A DNA stretch of 33,351 nucleotides from Candidatus Liptonbacteria bacterium. Its GTDB lineage: Bacteria; Patescibacteriota; Minisyncoccia; UBA6257; 2-01-FULL-56-20. The notes beneath the pieces are model-generated. The model was not told the origin of the DNA. It was given only the letters and a program-made list of their open reading frames with translations, and ran no database searches. The stretch's first letter is position 1; every line of letters begins with the position of its first letter. Made by a program: the position numbers and the translations under genes. The stretch spans positions 1 through 33,351 of the forward strand of contig JACQKU010000019.1 in the NCBI GenBank assembly GCA_016204335.1, written 5' to 3'. This document shows, one piece after another, positions 1,506-33,351 of the stretch.

Positions 1506-2102
1506 TTATGGACAGAAAAGTAAAAAAGAGAGTAGCAAACTTATACCACCTATGGCGAATAAAAACATCAGCAGAGAAAGTGGCTCCCATTCCTTCTTTT
1601 TTACTTCTTTGTCTTGATAATTTTCCAATAATTCGTTGTTCTTCTTCATTAACTGGCCCAACAATGGCTGGGGGATTTTTATTGCTTCTCCTTTTTCAGT
1701 TGCAGATAGTGCCTTGTCGTATACTTTCTTAAAAACCTCAAATCTATTTTTGAAAATTTTCTTAACACGTTCAACTTCCGCGTTTGTGCCTTTGAAATTA
1801 GATTTATAAATTTTTTGCGTCCAAAACAGCCCAATAAAAATTGAAACAAACAAAAGCGACTCTCCCGTAAAAAACAATACATCGCTTTTTACATAACCAA
1901 GGCCAGTGAATCCAAAACCCGCCACTACGCCTATAACTTGTATCAGTTGAGTGGTAGAGTTGAGTATTTTGTATAACAGAGTTTTTTGGTCCTCACCATG
2001 AGCAGCCAAAATCTCACTTTCTAACTTAAAGTATTTTGATCCTTGGCTTTCATAAAACTCATCCCACTCCTCCGTAGATAATTGTATTTCTTCTTCGTTC
2101 AT
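1506..2102 (-). CDS. Hypothetical membrane protein (about 3 predicted TM segments)
   Basis: 198-aa ORF with hydrophobic stretches LIQVIGVVAGFGFTGLGYV, VLFFTGESLLFVSIFIGLFW and LSLLMFLFAIGGISLLLSFLLF. Overlaps the MTase stop by 4 bp. Confidence 0.78.
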   Translation of the reverse strand: MNEEEIQLSTEEWDEFYESQGSKYFKLESEILAAHGEDQKTLLYKILNSTTQLIQVIGVVAGFGFTGLGYVKSDVLFFTGESLLFVSIFIGLFWTQKIYKSNFKGTNAEVERVKKIFKNRFEVFKKVYDKALSATEKGEAIKIPQPLLGQLMKKNNELLENYQDKEVKKKEWEPLSLLMFLFAIGGISLLLSFLLFCP

Positions 2103-3220
2103 AGTTTTTCTGACACAAGAAATTCATACTCAACTTTTGAGAATAAACTACTTGGCAAATCATTCAACCTTTTTTGAACGACCTTAATCGCAGGCTCTGA
2201 CTTATCAATTCCAATCCAGTTGCGATTGAGCGATTGTGCCGCGACAAGTGTTGTCCCGGAACCAGCGAAACAATCAAGAACTAAATCTCCCTCGTTTGAG
2301 GACGCTTCAACGATAAACTTTAATAAATCCAAACTTTTCTCTGTTGGGTATTGCGGATATTGAGAGTCCTTGAACTCCCAAATATCTTGCATTTTCTTTC
2401 CGTCTCTTTCGTCAAGAAAGATTTTTTTGCGCGGAACGCCGTTTGCCGACCATTCAATCAATCCTTGATTGTCCCATTCTTCCAAAATCGCCGGATCGGT
2501 TCGCCAATGGCGACCTTTCGGCGGCTTCATTCCTTTCCATTCTTTGCTTGTATTTCCGTTAGAAGTTTCCCCGGGCGCGTGAAGTGGGATTGTTGTATAT
2601 TGTCGTCCGCTCTTATCCAACTTCTTAAATAGACGCTCCTTATCTTCTTCCGAGAAAGGAACGCGCGGGTTATTCCAAATCGGGCTTTCCGCTTTTGAAT
2701 AAAACAGTATTAAATCTTTTATGTTGCCGTATGCTTTACGATGAAAATTTTTTGGATTGCACTTTATACGAGTAATGTCATTTCGGAACATATCACGACC
2801 AAACACCTCGTCCATTATGAGTTTTACATAGTGTCCGATTTTGTAATCAATATGGAGATAAATTGACCCGCGCTCCGATAAAAGTTCGCGCAAAAAAATC
2901 AATCTCTCGCGCAAAAACTCTAAAAAATCTGCCCCAATAAGAGTGTCGCTGTAAGCGATAGCGTCTCCGTTGCTACTACTGATTGTGTTTGCGCGATCAT
3001 CGCTGATTTTGAAGTGTCCGTTTGTAGCGAATGGCGGGTCAATATAAATCAAATCAACCTTGCCTGAATAATCATCAAGAAGGGTTTTGAGAGTAGAAAG
3101 ATTATCAGCATGAATGAGCTTATTTCTCGCCCCCTTGCCTGATATAGTTTTTAGTTCAACTCTCGAAGTTTTTTCGAGAATATCTTTCTCGTGTTTTTTA
3201 TTGTCATAAGTAATAAACAT
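2099..3220 (-). CDS. Type II site-specific DNA methyltransferase (DPPF motif, beta-type motif order)
   Basis: DLIYIDPPFATNGHF (motif IV) precedes VLDCFAGSGTTLVAAQSLNRNWIGID (motif I). Confidence 0.94.
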   Translation of the reverse strand: MFITYDNKKHEKDILEKTSRVELKTISGKGARNKLIHADNLSTLKTLLDDYSGKVDLIYIDPPFATNGHFKISDDRANTISSSNGDAIAYSDTLIGADFLEFLRERLIFLRELLSERGSIYLHIDYKIGHYVKLIMDEVFGRDMFRNDITRIKCNPKNFHRKAYGNIKDLILFYSKAESPIWNNPRVPFSEEDKERLFKKLDKSGRQYTTIPLHAPGETSNGNTSKEWKGMKPPKGRHWRTDPAILEEWDNQGLIEWSANGVPRKKIFLDERDGKKMQDIWEFKDSQYPQYPTEKSLDLLKFIVEASSNEGDLVLDCFAGSGTTLVAAQSLNRNWIGIDKSEPAIKVVQKRLNDLPSSLFSKVEYEFLVSEKL

Positions 3221-3225
3221 AGACG

Positions 3226-4017
3226 CTATAATTGATACAGGAACTCACGCAAAACAAGCGCGCTCATTATATTTTCCTCTTTGAGCTTTCCAGTTATATC
3301 TTTATACATTTTGTTTTTGCCCTTGATGTAGAGGACGCCATCAAGAATCGCCACCTTAATCGCCTTAACATTTTTGGCTTTTATTGTGGCGATAGCGTCA
3401 TTAAATTGAGCGTTTTGGTGTCCGCCAAAATCGGTCAAAAACTTTGCTTCACCGATAACGTATTTTCCGTTGAAGCGACCGATAAAATCCAAACCTTTAT
3501 TATGTCTGTAATTCAGATGTTCGCGAGCAAATTTCATCATTTCCGCATCACTGGCATCTAAGATAGCGTTTCCTTTTGCTTTCAAAAATTCGCCGAGTTT
3601 TACTGGTTGTATGCCTAACGCTTTCTTGTTGAGCCAGCGTTTGAAAAGCGGGCCGATTTGACGATTTGTTTCTTTTGGTTCAGAACAACGGGCAAAAATT
3701 TTATCAAGCCCCATTTCATACAAGCGTCCAGAAAGTCGAGCAGAAGTTGCCGGATTTCTCTCTAACGCGGTCTTGTCTCGTTTCAGATAGGCAACATAAG
3801 AATCTTTAATCGGAAACAAATCTAGTTTCAAAAGATTTTTCATAAGCGTAACATTGTCCCGCTTTTCAAACGCTTTTTCTACATCTTTCCAAAGTTCTCC
3901 GTTGGGTTCGCGTATTCCTTCCGGAATTGTTGGATACACTTGAAATAAATCATCCAAATAACTTTTTTGGCTTGCGTAATCAATACTTAATTGTGTCCAA
4001 GGATTTATGTTTTTCAT
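3226..4017 (-). CDS. Putative type II restriction endonuclease (PD-(D/E)XK-like)
   Basis: Next to MTase and C-protein-like gene. GLDFIGRFNGKYVIGEAKFLTDFGGHQNAQFNDA fits a D...ExK catalytic core. Confidence 0.83.
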   Translation of the reverse strand: MKNINPWTQLSIDYASQKSYLDDLFQVYPTIPEGIREPNGELWKDVEKAFEKRDNVTLMKNLLKLDLFPIKDSYVAYLKRDKTALERNPATSARLSGRLYEMGLDKIFARCSEPKETNRQIGPLFKRWLNKKALGIQPVKLGEFLKAKGNAILDASDAEMMKFAREHLNYRHNKGLDFIGRFNGKYVIGEAKFLTDFGGHQNAQFNDAIATIKAKNVKAIKVAILDGVLYIKGKNKMYKDITGKLKEENIMSALVLREFLYQL

Positions 4018-14843: not shown

Positions 14844-15671
14844 ATGACATACGAACTCGAAATTGAACAATTCAAAGGCCCGCTCGATAAACTGCTCGAG
14901 TTGATTGAAGCGCGGAAATTAGAAATCACGGAAATCAGCCTGGCGGCGGTGACCGACGATTTCATCCGTTATCTCCAAACGCTGGCAGACGCCGAACAAG
15001 CGCAGACCGGCGCGGAAAAAACCAACGTAAGTCCGCGCTTGTCTCGAGCGGAGTCGAGAGATGAAGTCCGCGAGGGTCTGCGTCTGTTGGCCGACTTTAT
15101 CGCCATCGCGAGCCGTTTGATTCTCATTAAATCAAAATCGCTTTTGCCGGATGTTTCCTTGACAGGCGAGGAGGAAGCCGAAATAAAAGACCTCGAAGAC
15201 CGCCTCAAACTGTACAGAGCTTTGAAACCTGGAATGAAACATATTGCCGGGCTTTGGCAGAATGGAAACCGGGAATTCGGCAGGCCGTATTTTTTGGATG
15301 TTCTTTCCTGGGCATCCGCGCCGGGAATGGAAGTATTCTATCCCGGGCCGAATCTTTCGGTTGCGGGGCTGACCTCGCCGCTTCAAAAAATTCTCGAGGG
15401 GTTTGAAAAAATTTCATCGGAAGAAGCGACTGTCAGAGAAGAAATAATTTCGATTGAAGAGAAAATCAAGGAAATCGTGAATCGCATCCAAAAATTCGGC
15501 GAGTCGACCCTTGCCGGATTGTCCGTAAGCGGCTCGCGCGCGGAACTCATCGCCGTTTTTCTCGCGGTTCTCCATCTCGCTCACGAGCAGTTGATTTTTC
15601 TCGAACAAAAAAGCCATTTTTCTGATATAATGGTAAAAACGCGACCCGAATTTACGAATGCATCCGAATGA
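14844..15671 (+). CDS. scpA: Segregation and condensation protein A
   Basis: FKGPLDKLLELIEARKLEITEISLAAVTDDFIRYL, IASRLILIKSKSLLP, C-terminal AVLHLAHEQLIFLEQ. Confidence 0.93.
   Translation: MTYELEIEQFKGPLDKLLELIEARKLEITEISLAAVTDDFIRYLQTLADAEQAQTGAEKTNVSPRLSRAESRDEVREGLRLLADFIAIASRLILIKSKSLLPDVSLTGEEEAEIKDLEDRLKLYRALKPGMKHIAGLWQNGNREFGRPYFLDVLSWASAPGMEVFYPGPNLSVAGLTSPLQKILEGFEKISSEEATVREEIISIEEKIKEIVNRIQKFGESTLAGLSVSGSRAELIAVFLAVLHLAHEQLIFLEQKSHFSDIMVKTRPEFTNASE
15623..15631 (+). promoter_or_regulatory. Extended -10 element TGATATAAT inside the 3' end of scpA, upstream of RM genes
   Basis: Exact TGNTATAAT 27-54 nt upstream of MTase start candidates. Confidence 0.5.
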
Positions 15672-16908
15672 TTCGAATATTACTATGGCTGTTGAACAAA
15701 TAATAAAGCAGGTAAAGGATTTTGTTGGCGCTCCGATAGTCAATGATATTTTAGATATCGGCGGCATTAGAGTCGCAAGGTTCATGGGAGAGTTTTGGAC
15801 TTCACGGCAGAGACAGGGAAATAGTTTACATGAGATATCATACCGTGCCTGTTTTAAATCTGAATTGCCAAAGTTTTTTATAGGTTCGTTGACAACCGAA
15901 GGAGATGTTGTTTATGACCCATTTGCTGGTAGGGGGACAACGGCTATTGAAGCAGCGCTTCTCGGTAGAAAAGTTATCTCTAACGATATTAATCCATTAA
16001 GCAGAATATTGGCTTATCCAAGATTATCGCCGCCGGATTTACTTGAATTAATTGAACGACTTGAAAAAATTAATCATAGCGTTAGAAAAATAAAAACGGA
16101 TATTAATTTGTCGATGTTTTATCACCCGCGAACCCTTGAAGAAATATTAAAAATTAAGAAATATCTTGAGAAAAGAAAAAGTGAAAATAGGGAAGATGAT
16201 TTGGATATGTGGATAAGAATGGTTGCAACAAATAGACTTTCAGGACATTCAACCGGGTTCTTCTCTGTTTATACATTACCGCCCAATCAAGCTCTAAGAC
16301 CAGAAAAGCAAAAGATTATAAATAGAGAAAGAAATCAAGAACCATCATATCGAAATGTTAAAAAAATTATAATCAAAAAAACACAGTCCCTAATCTCTGA
16401 AATTAATAACGAATTGTTTAGAAAATTAAAACACATAAAAGAGACAGCATCATTCTTAACAAAAGATTCAAGATATACAAGTGAAATATCTAATAATAGT
16501 GTTCAATTAACGGTGACATCCCCGCCATTTTTGGATATAGTACAATACACTGAAGATAATTGGTTGCGATGTTGGTTTAATTCAATCGACCCTTTTGAAG
16601 TTGAAAAAAATATAACAGTAACGAACAAGCTTGAAAAATGGAAAGAAGTTATCGGAGAAACACTAAAAGAGTTATATCGCATAACCAAACCGGGCGGTTT
16701 TGTGGCTTTTGAAGTTGGCGAAGTCAGAAAAGGAAAAATTAAATTAGATGAAGAAGTCGTCCCATTGGGTCTTGAAGCTGATTTTAAATGTTTAGGAATT
16801 TTAGTTAATAAACAGAATTTTACGAAAACATCTAATATATGGGGGATTTCCAACAATAAAATGGGGACTAACACTAACCGCATAGTTTTATTTACTAAAC
16901 AAAAATGA
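15658..16908 (+). CDS. Type II DNA methyltransferase (SPPF motif; start may be 15685)
   Basis: VYDPFAGRGTTAIEAALLGRKVISNDINPL (motif I) then LTVTSPPFLDIVQYTEDNW (motif IV). Confidence 0.92.
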   Translation: MHPNDSNITMAVEQIIKQVKDFVGAPIVNDILDIGGIRVARFMGEFWTSRQRQGNSLHEISYRACFKSELPKFFIGSLTTEGDVVYDPFAGRGTTAIEAALLGRKVISNDINPLSRILAYPRLSPPDLLELIERLEKINHSVRKIKTDINLSMFYHPRTLEEILKIKKYLEKRKSENREDDLDMWIRMVATNRLSGHSTGFFSVYTLPPNQALRPEKQKIINRERNQEPSYRNVKKIIIKKTQSLISEINNELFRKLKHIKETASFLTKDSRYTSEISNNSVQLTVTSPPFLDIVQYTEDNWLRCWFNSIDPFEVEKNITVTNKLEKWKEVIGETLKELYRITKPGGFVAFEVGEVRKGKIKLDEEVVPLGLEADFKCLGILVNKQNFTKTSNIWGISNNKMGTNTNRIVLFTKQK

Positions 16909-17564
16909 ATAAAGAATATATAAAAAAATTAGAAAATATTATAAAGACTATGTTAACGCCATTGAAAGGAATTCCCTTTAATTTGGTTATAGAAAGTCTT
17001 TCTGGCAATAAAGTTATACCGTTTAATATAAACGATAAAAAAGATATAGCGCTTCTTAAAAAACTAAAACTTATAACGATAATTGCCGGGAAAGAAGTAA
17101 ATAAGCGTGGAATATTAAGACCCAGACCCAATGAAGTTGGAAATGATATAGAACCGTTCATTAAAAAAACACTAAATAGAATTGGTTATAAAGCCGATAC
17201 TCCTTTTACTTCTGGTGGAGATAAAAAATCAACCGGTTACCCCGATATTGAATTTTTAGACGAATTTGGCAGAGTTAACTATTTAGAGTGTAAAACGTTT
17301 AATATCGAAAATATTTCTACTAGTCAAAGATCTTTTTACTTGTCTCCCTCCGAAAATTTCAAAGTTACTCGAGATGCTCACCACTTTGTTGTCTCATTTG
17401 AGGTTTACGTAGTTAAAAAACGAGGGACGCTTAACGTTTACAAATGCAGAAGTTGGAAAATTTTGGATATCAATGCTTTAGAGGTTGATGTTAAATACGA
17501 GTTTAATGCGGACAATAAAAGAATGTACGGCGGCGAATTAATTCTTGCCGAAGGCAAGATATAA
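16905..17564 (+). CDS. Putative type II restriction endonuclease
   Basis: Overlaps MTase stop by 4 bp; GYPDIEFLDEFGRVNYLECKTFN matches PD...ExK. Confidence 0.83.
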   Translation: MNKEYIKKLENIIKTMLTPLKGIPFNLVIESLSGNKVIPFNINDKKDIALLKKLKLITIIAGKEVNKRGILRPRPNEVGNDIEPFIKKTLNRIGYKADTPFTSGGDKKSTGYPDIEFLDEFGRVNYLECKTFNIENISTSQRSFYLSPSENFKVTRDAHHFVVSFEVYVVKKRGTLNVYKCRSWKILDINALEVDVKYEFNADNKRMYGGELILAEGKI

Positions 17565-17585: not shown

Positions 17586-18176
17586 ATGGATACAATAGAA
17601 AATGCCAAAAAATTAGAACAAAAACTGGCCGAACTTGAAGCGCTACTCTTTATTTACGGCGAGCAATTTTCCCGCAAAAAAGCGGAGAAGGTCTTAGAAA
17701 TTAATAATAAAGAAGAACTGGATTCTCTCATTGAAGAGTTCGGCAGGCGGCTGTCCGTCGAAGGCAGGGGATTGAGTTTGCTCACTGACAACGAAAAAAT
17801 CCAGCTTGTCACGAAGCCGCAATTCGGAAAACTCCTTGAAAGTTTCGTGAAAGCCGAGTTGAGCGATGATTTGACGCCGGCGAGTTTAGAAACGCTCTCG
17901 ATTATCCTGTATCTCGGCCCCATTTCGCGCGGGGAGATTGACTATCGCCGCGGCGTCAACTCGTCGTTCACGCTGAGAAATCTTTCACTCCGAGGCCTGA
18001 TTGAAAAATCATCCGATAAAGACCAGCAGGGCGGATATCTCTATCAAGCGAGCTTCGACCTTCTGAAGCATTTGGGAATAAACAGAAAAGAAGAATTGCC
18101 GGAATATGAAAAATTCAAGTCGCTTATTAAGCCGGACGACTCGCCTAAGCCGAAAACTTTCCCCGGAGCAATATAA
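17586..18176 (+). CDS. scpB: Segregation and condensation protein B
   Basis: KLEQKLAELEALLFIYGEQFSRKKAEKVL, LTPASLETLSIILYLGPISRGEIDYRRGVNSSFTLRNLSLRGLIE. Confidence 0.92.
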   Translation: MDTIENAKKLEQKLAELEALLFIYGEQFSRKKAEKVLEINNKEELDSLIEEFGRRLSVEGRGLSLLTDNEKIQLVTKPQFGKLLESFVKAELSDDLTPASLETLSIILYLGPISRGEIDYRRGVNSSFTLRNLSLRGLIEKSSDKDQQGGYLYQASFDLLKHLGINRKEELPEYEKFKSLIKPDDSPKPKTFPGAI

Positions 18177-28597: not shown

Positions 28598-28660
28598 ATA
28601 ACAAAAAATGAACAATGAGGAATGAATAAAAAAGTATTAAAGTGATTAAAGTGGCAGTTT

Positions 28661-28726
28661 TCATACTTTCTTATTCGCACGCCTGCCCGCCGTAGCGTTT
28701 GCGAAGGAGGGAATAAGAAAGTATGA
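28661..28726. repeat. Hairpin element, copy 1
   Basis: 16-bp perfect arms TCATACTTTCTTATTC/GAATAAGAAAGTATGA around CGCCTGCCCGCCGTAGCGTTTGCGAAGGAGG. Confidence 0.93.
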
Positions 28727-29052: not shown

Positions 29053-29610
29053 ATGAATAAGAATTTTACGTTCGAACTAAAAGACGCGAATAAGCTTAAT
29101 GATGAAGAAAAGAATCAGCTTATGATGCTTAGTATTTCCGAATATCCTGCGTTCAAAAAACTTTATGCAAAGAATAAATACTATTCAACCGTAAAACCGC
29201 AGAAGCAGTTTATTATTAAGCAAGGAAAAAAGATTATCGGTACGGGCAAATTTCTTTGGCGGACCATAAAAGTAAATAAAAAATCTTTTAGGATGGCGGC
29301 TTTTGGTGTCCTTATTTCGAAAAAGTATCAAAAATTAGGTTTAGGGACGGAACTCATAAAGCGAGATATTCAAGAAGCCAAAAAAAAGAAAATAGATTTA
29401 CTTTATGGTTCAACTTCGAATCCTGTAGCAGTAAAAATACTTGAAGGACTGGGATTTAGGCAACTCAAGACAGCCGTTCTTTATAAAGATTCCGAGACGA
29501 AACAAATAAAAATGGAGAAAGGCCAAGTTTATATTTTCGAACTCAAAAATGGCATTTTAAAACAAATAGAAAAGACGAAAAAATTCTTCATCGGGATCGG
29601 ACCCGTATAA
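29053..29610 (+). CDS. GNAT-family N-acetyltransferase
   Basis: FGVLISKKYQKLGLGTELIKRDIQEAKKKKIDLLYGSTSNPVAVKILEGLGFRQL. Start set to the internal ATG at 29053. Confidence 0.83.
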   Translation: MNKNFTFELKDANKLNDEEKNQLMMLSISEYPAFKKLYAKNKYYSTVKPQKQFIIKQGKKIIGTGKFLWRTIKVNKKSFRMAAFGVLISKKYQKLGLGTELIKRDIQEAKKKKIDLLYGSTSNPVAVKILEGLGFRQLKTAVLYKDSETKQIKMEKGQVYIFELKNGILKQIEKTKKFFIGIGPV

Positions 29611-29644: not shown

Positions 29645-31420
29645 ATGACTACAGAAACTCGGATCTGCCAGAACTGTAAGAAGAATTTTACGATTGAGCT
29701 GGAAGATTTTAACTTCTATAAAAAAATCTCAGTTCCGCCGCCGACGTGGTGTCCGCAGTGTCGGATGATCAGGAGGTTCACCCATAAGAATGAACGAAAT
29801 TTATATCGGGTAAAAGATGCACACACCGGAAAAGAAATTTTTTCTGGCATTCCGCCGCACGCACCCATCAAAATTTACGAGCAGGAATTTTGGTGGTCGG
29901 ATGGCTGGGATCCGATGGAATACGGCCGCGAGTATGATTTTAAAAAGCCATTCTTTGTTCAATTTAGGGAACTGATGCGTGAAGTGCCGTTTCCGAGCCG
30001 GAATATCACTCAATCAGTGAACTCGGATTATTCGGATTCATCGGGAGACCTCAAAAACTGCTATCTTTGTTTTAATTCCGGCCGCATGGAAAATTCCGCG
30101 TACGTTATCAACAGCACGCTTGTAAAAGAATCCTACGATATTATCGATGCCGCTAGCGCGGAACTTTCGTATGACTGTTTAAGCATCGGCGGCGCTTATA
30201 AACTTTTCTTTTCAATGTACTGTGGGCAGTCGGAAAATCTCTGGTTCTGCTGGGATTGCGTCGGTTGCTCAAATTGTTTCGGGTGCGTGAATCTTCGAAA
30301 CAAACGGTATTACATATTTAATCAGCCCCATACTAGAGAAGAGTATTTTGAAAAGCTAAAGAACTTCCGGCTTGATTCGTATGCGGCGCTTGAAGTCGTC
30401 AAAGAGCAGATAGAATGGTTTTGGACTTTATTTCCTCGTAAATATATCCGTGGAGTCAAGAATTTTAATGTATCCGGAGATTACGTTAATTTCTCTAAAA
30501 ATGTACGTTTCAGCTTCGGTATCGAAGGGGGCGAGGATTTGAAATATTGCCAGGAAATTTACCGACAAAAAGGGTATTGGGAGGGCGGAAAAGATTCTTA
30601 TGATTATTACAACTGGGGTTACAGTTCTGAGTTGATGTACGAAGTATGCGGTTCGGGTCAGGGATGCCGGAATATGAAGTTTTGTCTTGATTGTTGGCCG
30701 GCCGATCAGGATCTTGAGTACTGCATGCGATGCGTATCGTCGAATAATCTCTTTGGCTGCATCGGGCTTCAGAAAAAATCTTATTGCATTTTCAATAAAC
30801 AATATTCGCGCGATGACTTTCTCGAACTCCGGGAGAAAATTATCGCGCACATGAACGAAGCGCCCTACACCGACGCTCATGGAAGAATCTACAAATACGG
30901 GGAATTCTTTCCACCAGAGTTTTCTCTTTTCGGCTACAACGAAACCGTGGCGCAGGATTATTTTCCGTTGACCAAAGACGAAGCGGAAAAGCACGGATAC
31001 GTTTGGAGAGAAATCGAACGGCGGGAATACGAGATAACCATTGATGCAAAAGATTTGCCCGATTCCGTAACGGCGACATCAGATTCTATATTAAAAGAGG
31101 TTATCGGATGCATTTCCTGCAAAAGAGCATATCGTATTATTCAGGGCGAATATACGTTCCTACGATTTCAGACAATCGCTCTGCCGCGATTGTGTCCCGA
31201 TTGCCGTTATCTCAAAAGGTTTTCTTATCGAAACCGTCCAAAACTCTACGAACGCGAGTGTGATTGCAAAGGGATGAAGTCTAAAAATGGAAAATACAAA
31301 AACGCCATGAAGCATTCTCACAATGAGAATCAGTGTTCGAATTCATTTGTTACCGCATATACTCCGGAAAAACCCGAAATCGTCTACTGCGAGCAGTGTT
31401 ATCAAGCTGAAGTTGTATGA
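29645..31420 (+). CDS. Multi-zinc-ribbon, Cys-rich repeat protein of unknown function (paralog A)
   Basis: CQNCKKNF...PPPTWCPQC at N-terminus, CISCKRAY...LPRLCPDCRY and YCEQCYQAEVV at C-terminus, Cys-rich centre. Confidence 0.88.
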   Translation: MTTETRICQNCKKNFTIELEDFNFYKKISVPPPTWCPQCRMIRRFTHKNERNLYRVKDAHTGKEIFSGIPPHAPIKIYEQEFWWSDGWDPMEYGREYDFKKPFFVQFRELMREVPFPSRNITQSVNSDYSDSSGDLKNCYLCFNSGRMENSAYVINSTLVKESYDIIDAASAELSYDCLSIGGAYKLFFSMYCGQSENLWFCWDCVGCSNCFGCVNLRNKRYYIFNQPHTREEYFEKLKNFRLDSYAALEVVKEQIEWFWTLFPRKYIRGVKNFNVSGDYVNFSKNVRFSFGIEGGEDLKYCQEIYRQKGYWEGGKDSYDYYNWGYSSELMYEVCGSGQGCRNMKFCLDCWPADQDLEYCMRCVSSNNLFGCIGLQKKSYCIFNKQYSRDDFLELREKIIAHMNEAPYTDAHGRIYKYGEFFPPEFSLFGYNETVAQDYFPLTKDEAEKHGYVWREIERREYEITIDAKDLPDSVTATSDSILKEVIGCISCKRAYRIIQGEYTFLRFQTIALPRLCPDCRYLKRFSYRNRPKLYERECDCKGMKSKNGKYKNAMKHSHNENQCSNSFVTAYTPEKPEIVYCEQCYQAEVV

Positions 31421-31484
31421 TACCTTCTTATTTTCTTATTCGCGCGCCTGCCCGCCGTAGCGTTTGCGAAGGAGGGAATAAGAA
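31382..31484 (+). repeat. 103-bp direct repeat, copy 1 (3' end of paralog A plus hairpin)
   Basis: Identical to 33249..33351 by eye. Confidence 0.93.
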
Positions 31485-31492
31485 AATAAGAA
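31425..31492. repeat. Hairpin element, copy 2
   Basis: 17-bp perfect arms TTCTTATTTTCTTATTC/GAATAAGAAAATAAGAA around the conserved core. Confidence 0.93.
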
Positions 31493-31508
31493 TCAACTAT
31501 AAAATTTT

Positions 31509-33287
31509 ATGAATTCAGCGACCAAAGTGTGCCAGAATTGTAAACGGGAGTTTTCGATTGAACCCGAGGATTTTTCGTTTTACGAAAAAATAAACGTTCC
31601 GCCGCCGACATTCTGCCCTTTTTGCAGATTCGCAAGGAGGTTTTCTTACAGGAACGAAAGGAATCTTTTTTGGAATAAAAGCGCGAAGTCCGGTAAAAAA
31701 ATATTGTCGTTGTATCCTCTGCAATCCCATGTTACCGTCTACGACGAAGATGAGTGGTTTCGGGATGACTGGGACGCGTTGGAATACGGCAGAGATTATG
31801 ATTTTTCAAAACCGTTTTTTGAACAATTCCATGAACTCGCGCGAACTGTGCCGCGTCATGCCCGATCCAATACGAGCGGAAACACTGCAAATGTCGCAAG
31901 CGATTATGTGGCGAATACGGGATGGTCGAGAAATTGTTATTTTATTTTCAACGCCAGCGGAAACGAGAACTGCGCCTATGGAAACGGCGTGGATGACTGC
32001 AGGGAATGTTTCGATTGTTCGAACTCAATTAAATGCGAACTCTCTTACGAATCTTTTTTAAACAGGAACTGTTATAAAACGCATTTTTCTTCGCAATGCG
32101 AAGAATGCATGAACGTTTGGTTTTCGAAGGACTGTATAGGATGCACCGACTGTTTTGGCTGTATTAATCTTAGGAATAAGAAGTTTTATATTTTTAACAT
32201 TCCTTATTCGAAAGAGGAATATCGGGAGAAGTTAAAGAATATGGAACTTCATAAATGGAGCGGGCTTAAGGTAGCGCGGGAGAAGACCCGCGATTTTTGG
32301 CTGAAGAATCCCGTAAAGTATATGAGAGGAATCAACAATATCAACAGCACCGGGGACTACATCGACCATTCCCGGAATGTGCATTTGGGATATATCGTTC
32401 GCGAAAGCGAAAATGTGCGTTACTGCCAGTATCTTTCCGTGCCGTCGATTAAAGATTGTATGGACGTAACCTTAGACGGGTGGGGGTCAAACAACGAATT
32501 ATGTTATGAAAATTCCATATCAGGATTGGGCATATCCAATTCAAGATTTTCCGCGGAGTGCTGGCCCGAAGTGCGCGACACCGAATATTCAATGTTCTGC
32601 AAAAACGTTTCCAATGTGTTCGGTTGCGTGGGATTAAAAAACAAACAGTACTGCGTTTTCAACAAGCAGTATTCCAAAAACGATTACAAAGAATTAACTG
32701 GACGGATAAAAAAACATATGGATGATATGCCGTATACGGATAAGAACGGGAATATTTATCGTTACGGAGAATTTTTTCCGATTGAACACTCGCCGTTCGG
32801 GTATAATATTTCCGCCATAAGCGAACATTACCCGCTTTCGAAAGAGCAAGCTCTGGACCGCGGATATGCTTGGAACGAGCCCGAATCAAAAGAATACGAT
32901 ATAACGATGAAATCGGAAGACATTCCCGATTCCATAAATGACATCGCTGACGACATTCTTTCCGGCGTTATTGCATGCGTGAATTGCGCGCGGGCATACC
33001 GTATAATCAAAATGGAGCTCGATTTTCTGCGCGCCGAGAACATTCCGCTTCCGCGCCTTTGTCCGGATTGCCGCCATAAAATGAGGATTGCCCAAAGGAA
33101 TCCTTATTTTTTCTACAACGGGGAATGCGGTTGCGCAGGCGGGTCATCGTCAAACGGAAAATATAAAAATTCCACGCCGCATTTTCACAGAGAGAAAGTT
33201 TGTCCGAGCAAATTTATCACTTCCTACGCTCCCGACCGCCCCGAAATAGTCTACTGCGAGCAGTGTTATCAAGCTGAAGTTGTATGA
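31509..33287 (+). CDS. Multi-zinc-ribbon, Cys-rich repeat protein of unknown function (paralog B)
   Basis: CQNCKREFSIEPEDFSFYEKINVPPPTFCPFCRF; same layout as paralog A; C-terminal EIVYCEQCYQAEVV identical. Confidence 0.88.
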   Translation: MNSATKVCQNCKREFSIEPEDFSFYEKINVPPPTFCPFCRFARRFSYRNERNLFWNKSAKSGKKILSLYPLQSHVTVYDEDEWFRDDWDALEYGRDYDFSKPFFEQFHELARTVPRHARSNTSGNTANVASDYVANTGWSRNCYFIFNASGNENCAYGNGVDDCRECFDCSNSIKCELSYESFLNRNCYKTHFSSQCEECMNVWFSKDCIGCTDCFGCINLRNKKFYIFNIPYSKEEYREKLKNMELHKWSGLKVAREKTRDFWLKNPVKYMRGINNINSTGDYIDHSRNVHLGYIVRESENVRYCQYLSVPSIKDCMDVTLDGWGSNNELCYENSISGLGISNSRFSAECWPEVRDTEYSMFCKNVSNVFGCVGLKNKQYCVFNKQYSKNDYKELTGRIKKHMDDMPYTDKNGNIYRYGEFFPIEHSPFGYNISAISEHYPLSKEQALDRGYAWNEPESKEYDITMKSEDIPDSINDIADDILSGVIACVNCARAYRIIKMELDFLRAENIPLPRLCPDCRHKMRIAQRNPYFFYNGECGCAGGSSSNGKYKNSTPHFHREKVCPSKFITSYAPDRPEIVYCEQCYQAEVV

Positions 33288-33351
33288 TACCTTCTTATTT
33301 TCTTATTCGCGCGCCTGCCCGCCGTAGCGTTTGCGAAGGAGGGAATAAGAA
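33249..33351 (+). repeat. 103-bp direct repeat, copy 2 (cut by window end), includes hairpin element copy 3
   Basis: Identical to 31382..31484. Confidence 0.93.

Follow-up and report, generated by a model that had tools for sequence, protein, structure and literature searches.

What do two large, cysteine-rich proteins encoded side by side at the end of a Candidatus Liptonbacteria contig do, and with what do they work? The window analyzed here is the whole of that contig (JACQKU010000019.1, 33,351 bases), which belongs to a genome of 700,911 bases in 23 contigs with an estimated completeness of 93%. Its tandem genes encode P0001 and P0002, members of a family whose full-length proteins very probably work as partners of one clade of soluble VirD4-like ATPases. 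The initial annotation, made from the DNA letters alone, had described two tandem paralogs of ~591 amino acids (aa) with a shared plan. Both open reading frames (ORFs) proved intact, and their products are homologous along the entire length with 49% identity (E 1.7e-195 in a genome search), far beyond chance. The elements of the plan were found as well: a CxxC...PPPTxCPxC ribbon at residues 8-39, a W/YGR/YDF/PFF/QF block around residues 82-106, a Cys-rich core, a second ribbon CxxCxRAYRI...LPRLCPDC at residues 490-521, and a terminal CEQCYQAEVV. A count of the family in the genome, suggested at the same time, returned seven members, namely the tandem pair in the window, another tandem pair on contig C10, and singles on C3, C1, and C21.

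The proteins are built as N-S1-S2-C: a treble-clef zinc module at each end encloses two Cys-rich beta-solenoid modules, and within each kind the two modules are homologous to one another (Table 1). Profile-profile comparison of sub-alignments with hhalign related N to C (99.7%, E 1.8e-26) and S1 to S2 (99.9%, E 7e-36), while two cross-comparisons run as controls were negative; the family was built through two internal duplications. Among 191 full-length members, which carry a mean of 35.6 Cys per protein, the sets Cys-8/11/36/39 (94-99%) and Cys-540/565/583/586 are conserved at 94-100% and the third set, Cys-490/493/518/521, at 62-95%, in agreement with the multi-zinc-ribbon character first proposed. 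The end modules share more identity among members (0.52 and 0.56) than the solenoid (0.36). Pfam zf_Tbcl (PF13451) and zf_Tbcl_2 (PF23477) each matched 15 of 50 members (best E 5e-5 and 1.8e-6, respectively), the position within the protein not being shown for most of them, and P0001 and P0002 themselves gave no match to either at E 1. The end modules also resemble these domains in a 44-residue structural match to viral putative zinc-ribbon proteins (0.6 Å root-mean-square deviation, E 0.1). Known zf_Tbcl and zf_Tbcl_2 proteins are short, unlike the present family with its two modules flanking two solenoids.

A possible beta-helix core had been anticipated, and structure prediction agreed. The AlphaFold2 model of P0002, computed from a 50-sequence alignment (mean predicted local distance difference test, pLDDT, 84.6; predicted template modelling score, pTM, 0.86), has a predicted beta-solenoid core of many short strands spaced ~6 residues; a model of the S modules only was weaker (pLDDT 74.6, pTM 0.57). 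Foldseek found no PDB match below E 1.1 for the full-length model. For the S-only model the best match reached E 7e-4 (probability 0.25, TM-scores ~0.1), and nearly all top matches were right-handed beta-helix or pentapeptide-repeat proteins, such as P22 tailspike, AlgE4, MfpA, and QnrB1; with no sequence match, the resemblance is one of fold class only. A divergent subtype, which starts with M..KTPxFDxALDEIL and has no N-terminal CxxC (L008:3232-4974, L011:6788-8521, L034:6732-8480, L021:2489-4231, and C21:2809-4548 of the genome studied here), alternates with the main type in arrays. At L025:8293-9807 and L031:10840-11658 the first zinc-module Cys residues are replaced (e.g., TCQLTNTEFEI...GPKVR), and these members seemingly keep the fold without the metal site.

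The family had been annotated as being of unknown function, and our searches bear this out. No family was found for the whole protein in Pfam, NCBIfam, PADLOC, or PDB sequence searches, and no description of it was found in open-access papers. P0001 and P0002 gave no match to PADLOC at E 1 (the two window proteins were scanned, not the ATPase), and no effector, toxin, or recognition domain was found in them in Pfam, NCBIfam, or PADLOC. PDB matches to LIM domains (E 0.007 at best) were taken as generic zinc-knuckle similarity. The S modules gave a weak profile match to PHROG 15341 (1e-4 for P0001, 8e-19 for a two-S protein), which comprises Cys-rich Campylobacter phage proteins (e.g., CP20 L095:2387-2812); the identity is about 27-29% over part of a short Cys-rich protein and may be compositional. 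A phage, plasmid, or mobile-element family was rejected, as tblastn searches of 50,697 phage and 72,556 plasmid records gave no match. A lone match on a viral contig (L036:5781-5966) is a 62-residue S-module fragment at the contig end that runs against a tail-sheath-like gene; read by eye, this stretch is probably an antisense continuation of that gene on a chimeric contig.

Clustering of neighbouring genes disclosed a VirD4-like ATPase as the commonest neighbour (13 genomes). Three types, X, Y, and Z, were told apart by match position, length, and start sequence: X is soluble and usually has a C-terminal zinc module, Y is soluble and ~480-510 aa long, and Z, of about 800 aa, has an N-terminal membrane segment. 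Neither X, often adjacent yet also present in family-negative genomes, nor Z, found in most genomes, was retained as a specific partner. A Y profile run against a sample of 380 genomes of the phylum scored 928-997 bits in six (Y) and 541-594 bits in 24 (Y′, 741-791 aa), with further scores at 529 or less; genome G086 (518 bits, within that lower range) was counted as Y′, its match being broken by a frameshift and falling inside the Y′ clade. Together, Y and Y′ form a single clade of 44 sequences with support of 1.0. Both resemble the coupling ATPases VirD4/TrwB/TraG (PF10412, PF02534) in matching T4SS-DNA_transf and TrwB_AAD_bind above the Pfam cut-off and in keeping the Walker A motif, and differ from them in having no transmembrane segment, in ending with a P-[LIM]-[ILV] tail, and in lying beside client genes.

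The presence of this clade follows that of the family. In the phylum sample, 29 genomes hold full-length members together with Y or Y′, none holds the family only, two hold Y/Y′ only, and 349 hold neither (Fisher p 2e-41, with the genomes related and kinship not corrected). The 29 positive genomes span 12 GTDB families, and contrasts occur within genera: both components are present in G003 and neither in G024, and likewise for G104/G380 versus G118 and G314 versus G363. This paired presence and absence, with the 12-family spread, is more telling than the Fisher p. The two genomes with Y/Y′ and no full-length family, G170 and G344, come from genera that also include positive genomes; in G344, Y is truncated. 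Among 41 relatives, 13 of the 14 full-length-positive genomes carry exactly one Y and none of the other 27 has an ATPase so classed; the class was assigned from ORF length and the position of the match, and scores bore it out for the sequences fetched.

Gene order points the same way. Among the 25 Y′ genes from outside the window's class, 15 have a family gene no more than 400 bp away, in every case on the same strand, and at a limit of 1.2 kb the count rises to 18; the family genes are either 5′ or 3′ of the ATPase. For three of the remaining seven, a member lies at 2.9-7.0 kb; the other four, two of which adjoin a contig end, show none in the stretch that was fetched. Loci L070, L013, and L152, which belong to the window's class, are arranged as Y, family array, X. 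In the genome studied here, neither Y (C6) nor X (C3) adjoins a family member, and a VirB4-like gene is on a further contig, C20.

The ATPases of this clade also share a specific end. The C-terminal P-[LIM]-[ILV] tail (e.g., EPLI, EPII, and APIL), placed after a variable linker, is present in 18 of 18 intact Y and 24 of 24 intact Y′ proteins, whereas the 38 other VirD4-like ATPases compared all lack it. In G086, whose Y′ is frameshifted, NEPLV can still be read in another frame, and the truncated Y of G344 has no such tail. Conservation of the extreme C-terminus across diverged ATPases suggests a docking motif, and the clients could be its target. In a Kyte-Doolittle scan of 19 residues, a maximum above 1.6 was reached by one of 19 Y and about five of 24 Y′ proteins (not N-terminal, median position 440), compared with eight of nine Z and other ATPases, near residue 11.

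A second branch of VirD4-like ATPases provides an independent link between solenoid and ATPase. Lone S modules (230-240 aa, no zinc ends) were examined in five genomes; in four (L083-L086) they lie directly 3′ of a TrwB/HerA-like ATPase gene, and at L088 an ATPase of this kind carries the S module as a C-terminal fusion. Genome G231 encodes a VirD4-like ATPase together with a two-S protein and a lone zinc-module protein, as if one protein had been split in two.

A GTDB-wide scan revealed 28 homologous loci, and all those with informative names belong to Patescibacteria lineages (Staskawiczbacteria, Nomurabacteria, Paceibacterota, Peribacteria, Peregrinibacteria), the rest being titled 'bacterium' or 'uncultured bacterium'. 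Full-length members are present in 14 of the 41 relatives at 3 to 27 copies each, including 24, 26, and 27 copies in three members of the taxonomic family to which the window's genome belongs; a genome of 0.84 Mb assembled as one contig has 17. In G007, 27 copies of ~1.78 kb make up ~6% of a 0.8 Mb assembly (estimated 81% complete). Some arrays run to 6 to 8 consecutive genes, with start and stop codons often overlapping or nearly abutting. Identity among copies is similar within (0.40) and between genomes (0.38). In a tree of 189 members, 12 of 172 nearest neighbours came from the same genome (mean 4.4 after shuffling, maximum 15), array neighbours stood little closer to each other than random pairs did (median distance 1.93 versus 2.20), and members in the same chromosomal slot of different genomes (murG-ftsW, pgk, lepA, guaB) were usually not closest relatives. 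Recent genome-specific amplification was ruled out because copies did not cluster by genome and array neighbours were barely closer than random pairs; the initial idea of a family under diversification was not supported in that form, paralogs within a genome being as diverged as copies from different genomes. Given the similar identities within and between genomes, nearest neighbours that mostly lie elsewhere, and slots whose members are usually not closest relatives, the repertoire is old and reshuffled, possibly through loss, transfer, or fast divergence, and not the outcome of recent local amplification.

We propose that the window proteins act as variable clients of one soluble Y-clade ATPase. 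The partnership draws its computed support from the modular build, co-occurrence, adjacency, the tail, and the fusion. The ratio of one Y ATPase to 1 to 27 clients fits a single machine that serves many of them. The ATPase would bind folded clients, either by docking its own C-terminal tail on them or by receiving their conserved zinc ends, and would then feed or remodel them; such physical contact, ATP-driven handling, and delivery to other cells are what we infer. Most likely, the clients would be exported by the relaxase-less type IV secretion machinery of the phylum and be directed at a host or a neighbouring cell, the variable solenoid deciding each client's recognition target. Effectors of type IV secretion with a shared C-terminal recognition domain are known, for example, X-Tfe with XVIPCD and the Bartonella Beps with BID. 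Compared by description and not by sequence, the present proteins are like them in being many and variable, with common ends and a linked VirD4-like ATPase, and unlike them in having no toxic domain or immunity gene and in carrying three zinc sites and a Cys-rich solenoid, their export being conjectural. Delivery is argued from the analogy with VirD4, the one-ATPase-many-clients ratio, the constant ends and variable middle, and the published view that type IV secretion in Patescibacteria was co-opted for a non-conjugation role (PMC12102498).

This proposal is graded by its parts. That the clients are translocated cargo is possible and somewhat doubtful, and the statement as a whole, variable clients of a dedicated soluble VirD4/TrwB-like ATPase that are likely delivered outside, is put forward tentatively, with a little less than even confidence. 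Rather unlikely is its boldest form, an undescribed delivery system in which one soluble ATPase with a docking tail loads a large repertoire of zinc-ended solenoid proteins, constant at the ends and variable in the middle, for Patescibacteria to use on their hosts or on cells nearby, the gene sets turning over among conserved chromosomal slots. Several observations weigh against the proposal. In the genome studied here, Y lies at C6:83180-84661 with no family gene in the fetched ~10 kb, so that the link rests on relatives. Y, Y′, and X do not have the N-terminal transmembrane anchor of canonical coupling proteins. G028 has 10 family copies without Y, G170 has Y without the family, and G231, G303, and G372, with partial or split members, have no Y. 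Almost every genome has VirB4-like ATPases, whether or not it carries the family, and secretion is thus not singled out by co-occurrence. Neither a signal nor a toxic domain nor an immunity gene was seen, and proteins with several zinc sites and about 36 Cys would need unfolding or folded transport for export. Fusion of an S module to an ATPase also suits a stable subunit better than exported cargo.

The main rival is an intracellular nucleic-acid machine, in which family members would serve as DNA- or RNA-binding adaptors, the zinc ends binding and the solenoid giving specificity, while the ATPase pumps nucleic acid in DNA uptake, transfer, or mobile-element defence. Such a role would suit a soluble ATPase with no membrane anchor that matches TrwB_AAD_bind, T4SS-DNA_transf, and HerA central-domain models of the VirD4/TrwB/HerA/FtsK superfamily. 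Zinc ribbons and treble clefs are frequently nucleic-acid binders, variable repertoires with patchy presence are like defence loci, and the L088 fusion fits a subunit. We nevertheless consider this machine unlikely, as the window proteins drew no PADLOC match, no nuclease, integrase, or relaxase recurred among the clustered neighbours, members carry almost no net charge (mean -0.010 per residue) and are not basic, and copies sit amid housekeeping genes (murG/ftsW, pgk, lepA, guaB). The fusion and the operon structure would also suit a stable multi-subunit assembly or scaffold of hetero-oligomeric paralogs, assembled or remodelled by the ATPase and using zinc as structural staples only; beta-solenoids are common assembly modules, and paralog lineages are common to several genera, as the 12 of 172 same-genome neighbours indicate and as fixed subunits would be. 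However, a copy number from 0 to 27 among genera of one family is odd for fixed stoichiometry, and same-slot members of different genomes are usually not close relatives, which leaves a scaffold improbable.

The high Cys content could instead reflect metal handling, with the proteins storing, buffering, or sensing metal under ArsR-like regulation. An ArsR-type regulator beside arrays at four loci, including the window, and a CutA-like gene, named from sequence, near arrays at about seven loci are in favour. The recurrent regulators elsewhere are TrmB-like and not metal sensors, however, the metal site of the ArsR match is putative, and a dedicated VirD4-like ATPase and 27 diverged copies would be left unexplained, making this role highly improbable. 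Hitchhiking, in which family and ATPase would sit separately in a gene-rich accessory island with no functional contact, gains from the relatedness of the genomes, from counts not corrected for phylogeny, and from the unlinked family and Y in the genome studied here. Against it stand adjacency in two distant genome sets, paired presence and absence in three genera, the ATPase-specific C-terminal motif, and the independent S-module operon and fusion with a different ATPase branch; we judge it the least probable of these explanations.

With their minimal genomes, Patescibacteria live for the most part on other bacteria, and their action on hosts is a long-standing question. A family that takes up to about 6% of an assembly and has a dedicated ATPase should matter to this lifestyle. 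In our judgement the pairing of family and ATPase lies outside described systems, while the ATPase superfamily and the zinc-finger type of the end modules were already known. A 2025 survey counted 5,713 VirD4 homologues in 2,918 Patescibacteria genomes, 148 of them near virB4, and left their function open (PMC12102498). The pairing offers a partner for some of these abundant homologues rarely near virB4, and turns 'hypothetical proteins' into a two-part hypothesis that is testable through tail-client binding.

Table 1. Features of the family locus in the 33,351-base window, with the modules of P0002.
Feature	Coordinates	Strand	Description
Hairpin repeat, copy 1	28660-28726	.	67 nt, 16-bp perfect outer stem; 5′ of ArsR-like gene; found by repeat search
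ArsR-like helix-turn-helix regulator, 91 aa	28764-29039	+	Pfam HTH_5 1.2e-5; 5′ of the pair
GNAT acetyltransferase gene	29053-29610 (ATG)	+	Pfam Acetyltransf_1 5e-7; in-frame TTG ORF from 28975
Family member 1, P0001, 591 aa	29645-31420	+	Intact ORF, ATG start, architecture N-S1-S2-C
Hairpin repeat, copy 2	31425-31491	.	Between the two genes; RNA fold -27.2 kcal/mol, z -3.4
Family member 2, P0002, 592 aa	31509-33287	+	Intact ORF, ATG start, architecture N-S1-S2-C
P0002 N module, aa 1-115	31509-31853	+	Treble-clef site C8/C11/C36/C39, then degenerate second knuckle (W/D for Cys)
P0002 S1 module, aa 116-247	31854-32249	+	Cys-rich beta-solenoid, end motif FGCxNLRNKxYxIFN...SKEEY
P0002 S2 module, aa 284-412	32358-32744	+	Second beta-solenoid and helix
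P0002 C module, aa 486-592	32964-33284	+	Treble-clef C490/C493/C518/C521, terminal ribbon C540/C565/C583/C586
Hairpin repeat, copy 3	33288-33351	.	Cut off at contig end

The ArsR regulator and GNAT gene that the initial annotation had placed 5′ of the pair were both recovered by Pfam. Homologous ArsR-like regulators (86-93 aa) also lie beside arrays at L152, L072, and L071, and TrmB-like regulators occur within three genes of family genes or the ATPase at 11 loci, often divergent from the array. The GNAT gene is probably a bystander, as its recurrence beside the family was not seen. A small gene that we take, from its sequence, to be CutA-like stands between or beside array and ATPase gene at L009, L011, L069, L070, L082, L100, and L153. 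CutA-like, GNAT, and neighbouring housekeeping genes looked like bystanders when considered as partners.

The ~65-nt hairpin repeat, with an A/T-rich stem, has six copies in the genome (G000), of which four touch family genes or their regulator; the copies outside the window are at C3:29491-29557, ~14 bp upstream of a family gene start, C8:4965-5028, and C1:5326-5389. It could act as a terminator or as a shared control element; alternatively, it could be a small dispersed repeat. The contig stops at base 33351, 64 bases past the second gene and within the third copy, and the array may or may not run on past this point; longer arrays, as first surmised, occur in other genomes. The last 112 nt of the contig (33240-33351), covering a gene 3′ end and the hairpin, are 99% identical to 31373-31484. 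This near-identity, despite 49% identity of the proteins, may stem from gene conversion or be an effect of assembly where the contig stops.

Elsewhere in the window, positions 15658-17564, between an apparent scpA (14844-15671) and scpB (17586-18176), lie in the most A+T-rich stretch (GC 0.31). They hold a gene for a DNA methyltransferase (N6_N4_Mtase, 5e-21) and one of 219 aa that has no Pfam match and may be its restriction partner. A second restriction-modification pair at 2099-4017 (-) consists of an N6_N4 methylase and a full-length Tsp45I-type enzyme (E 4e-122).

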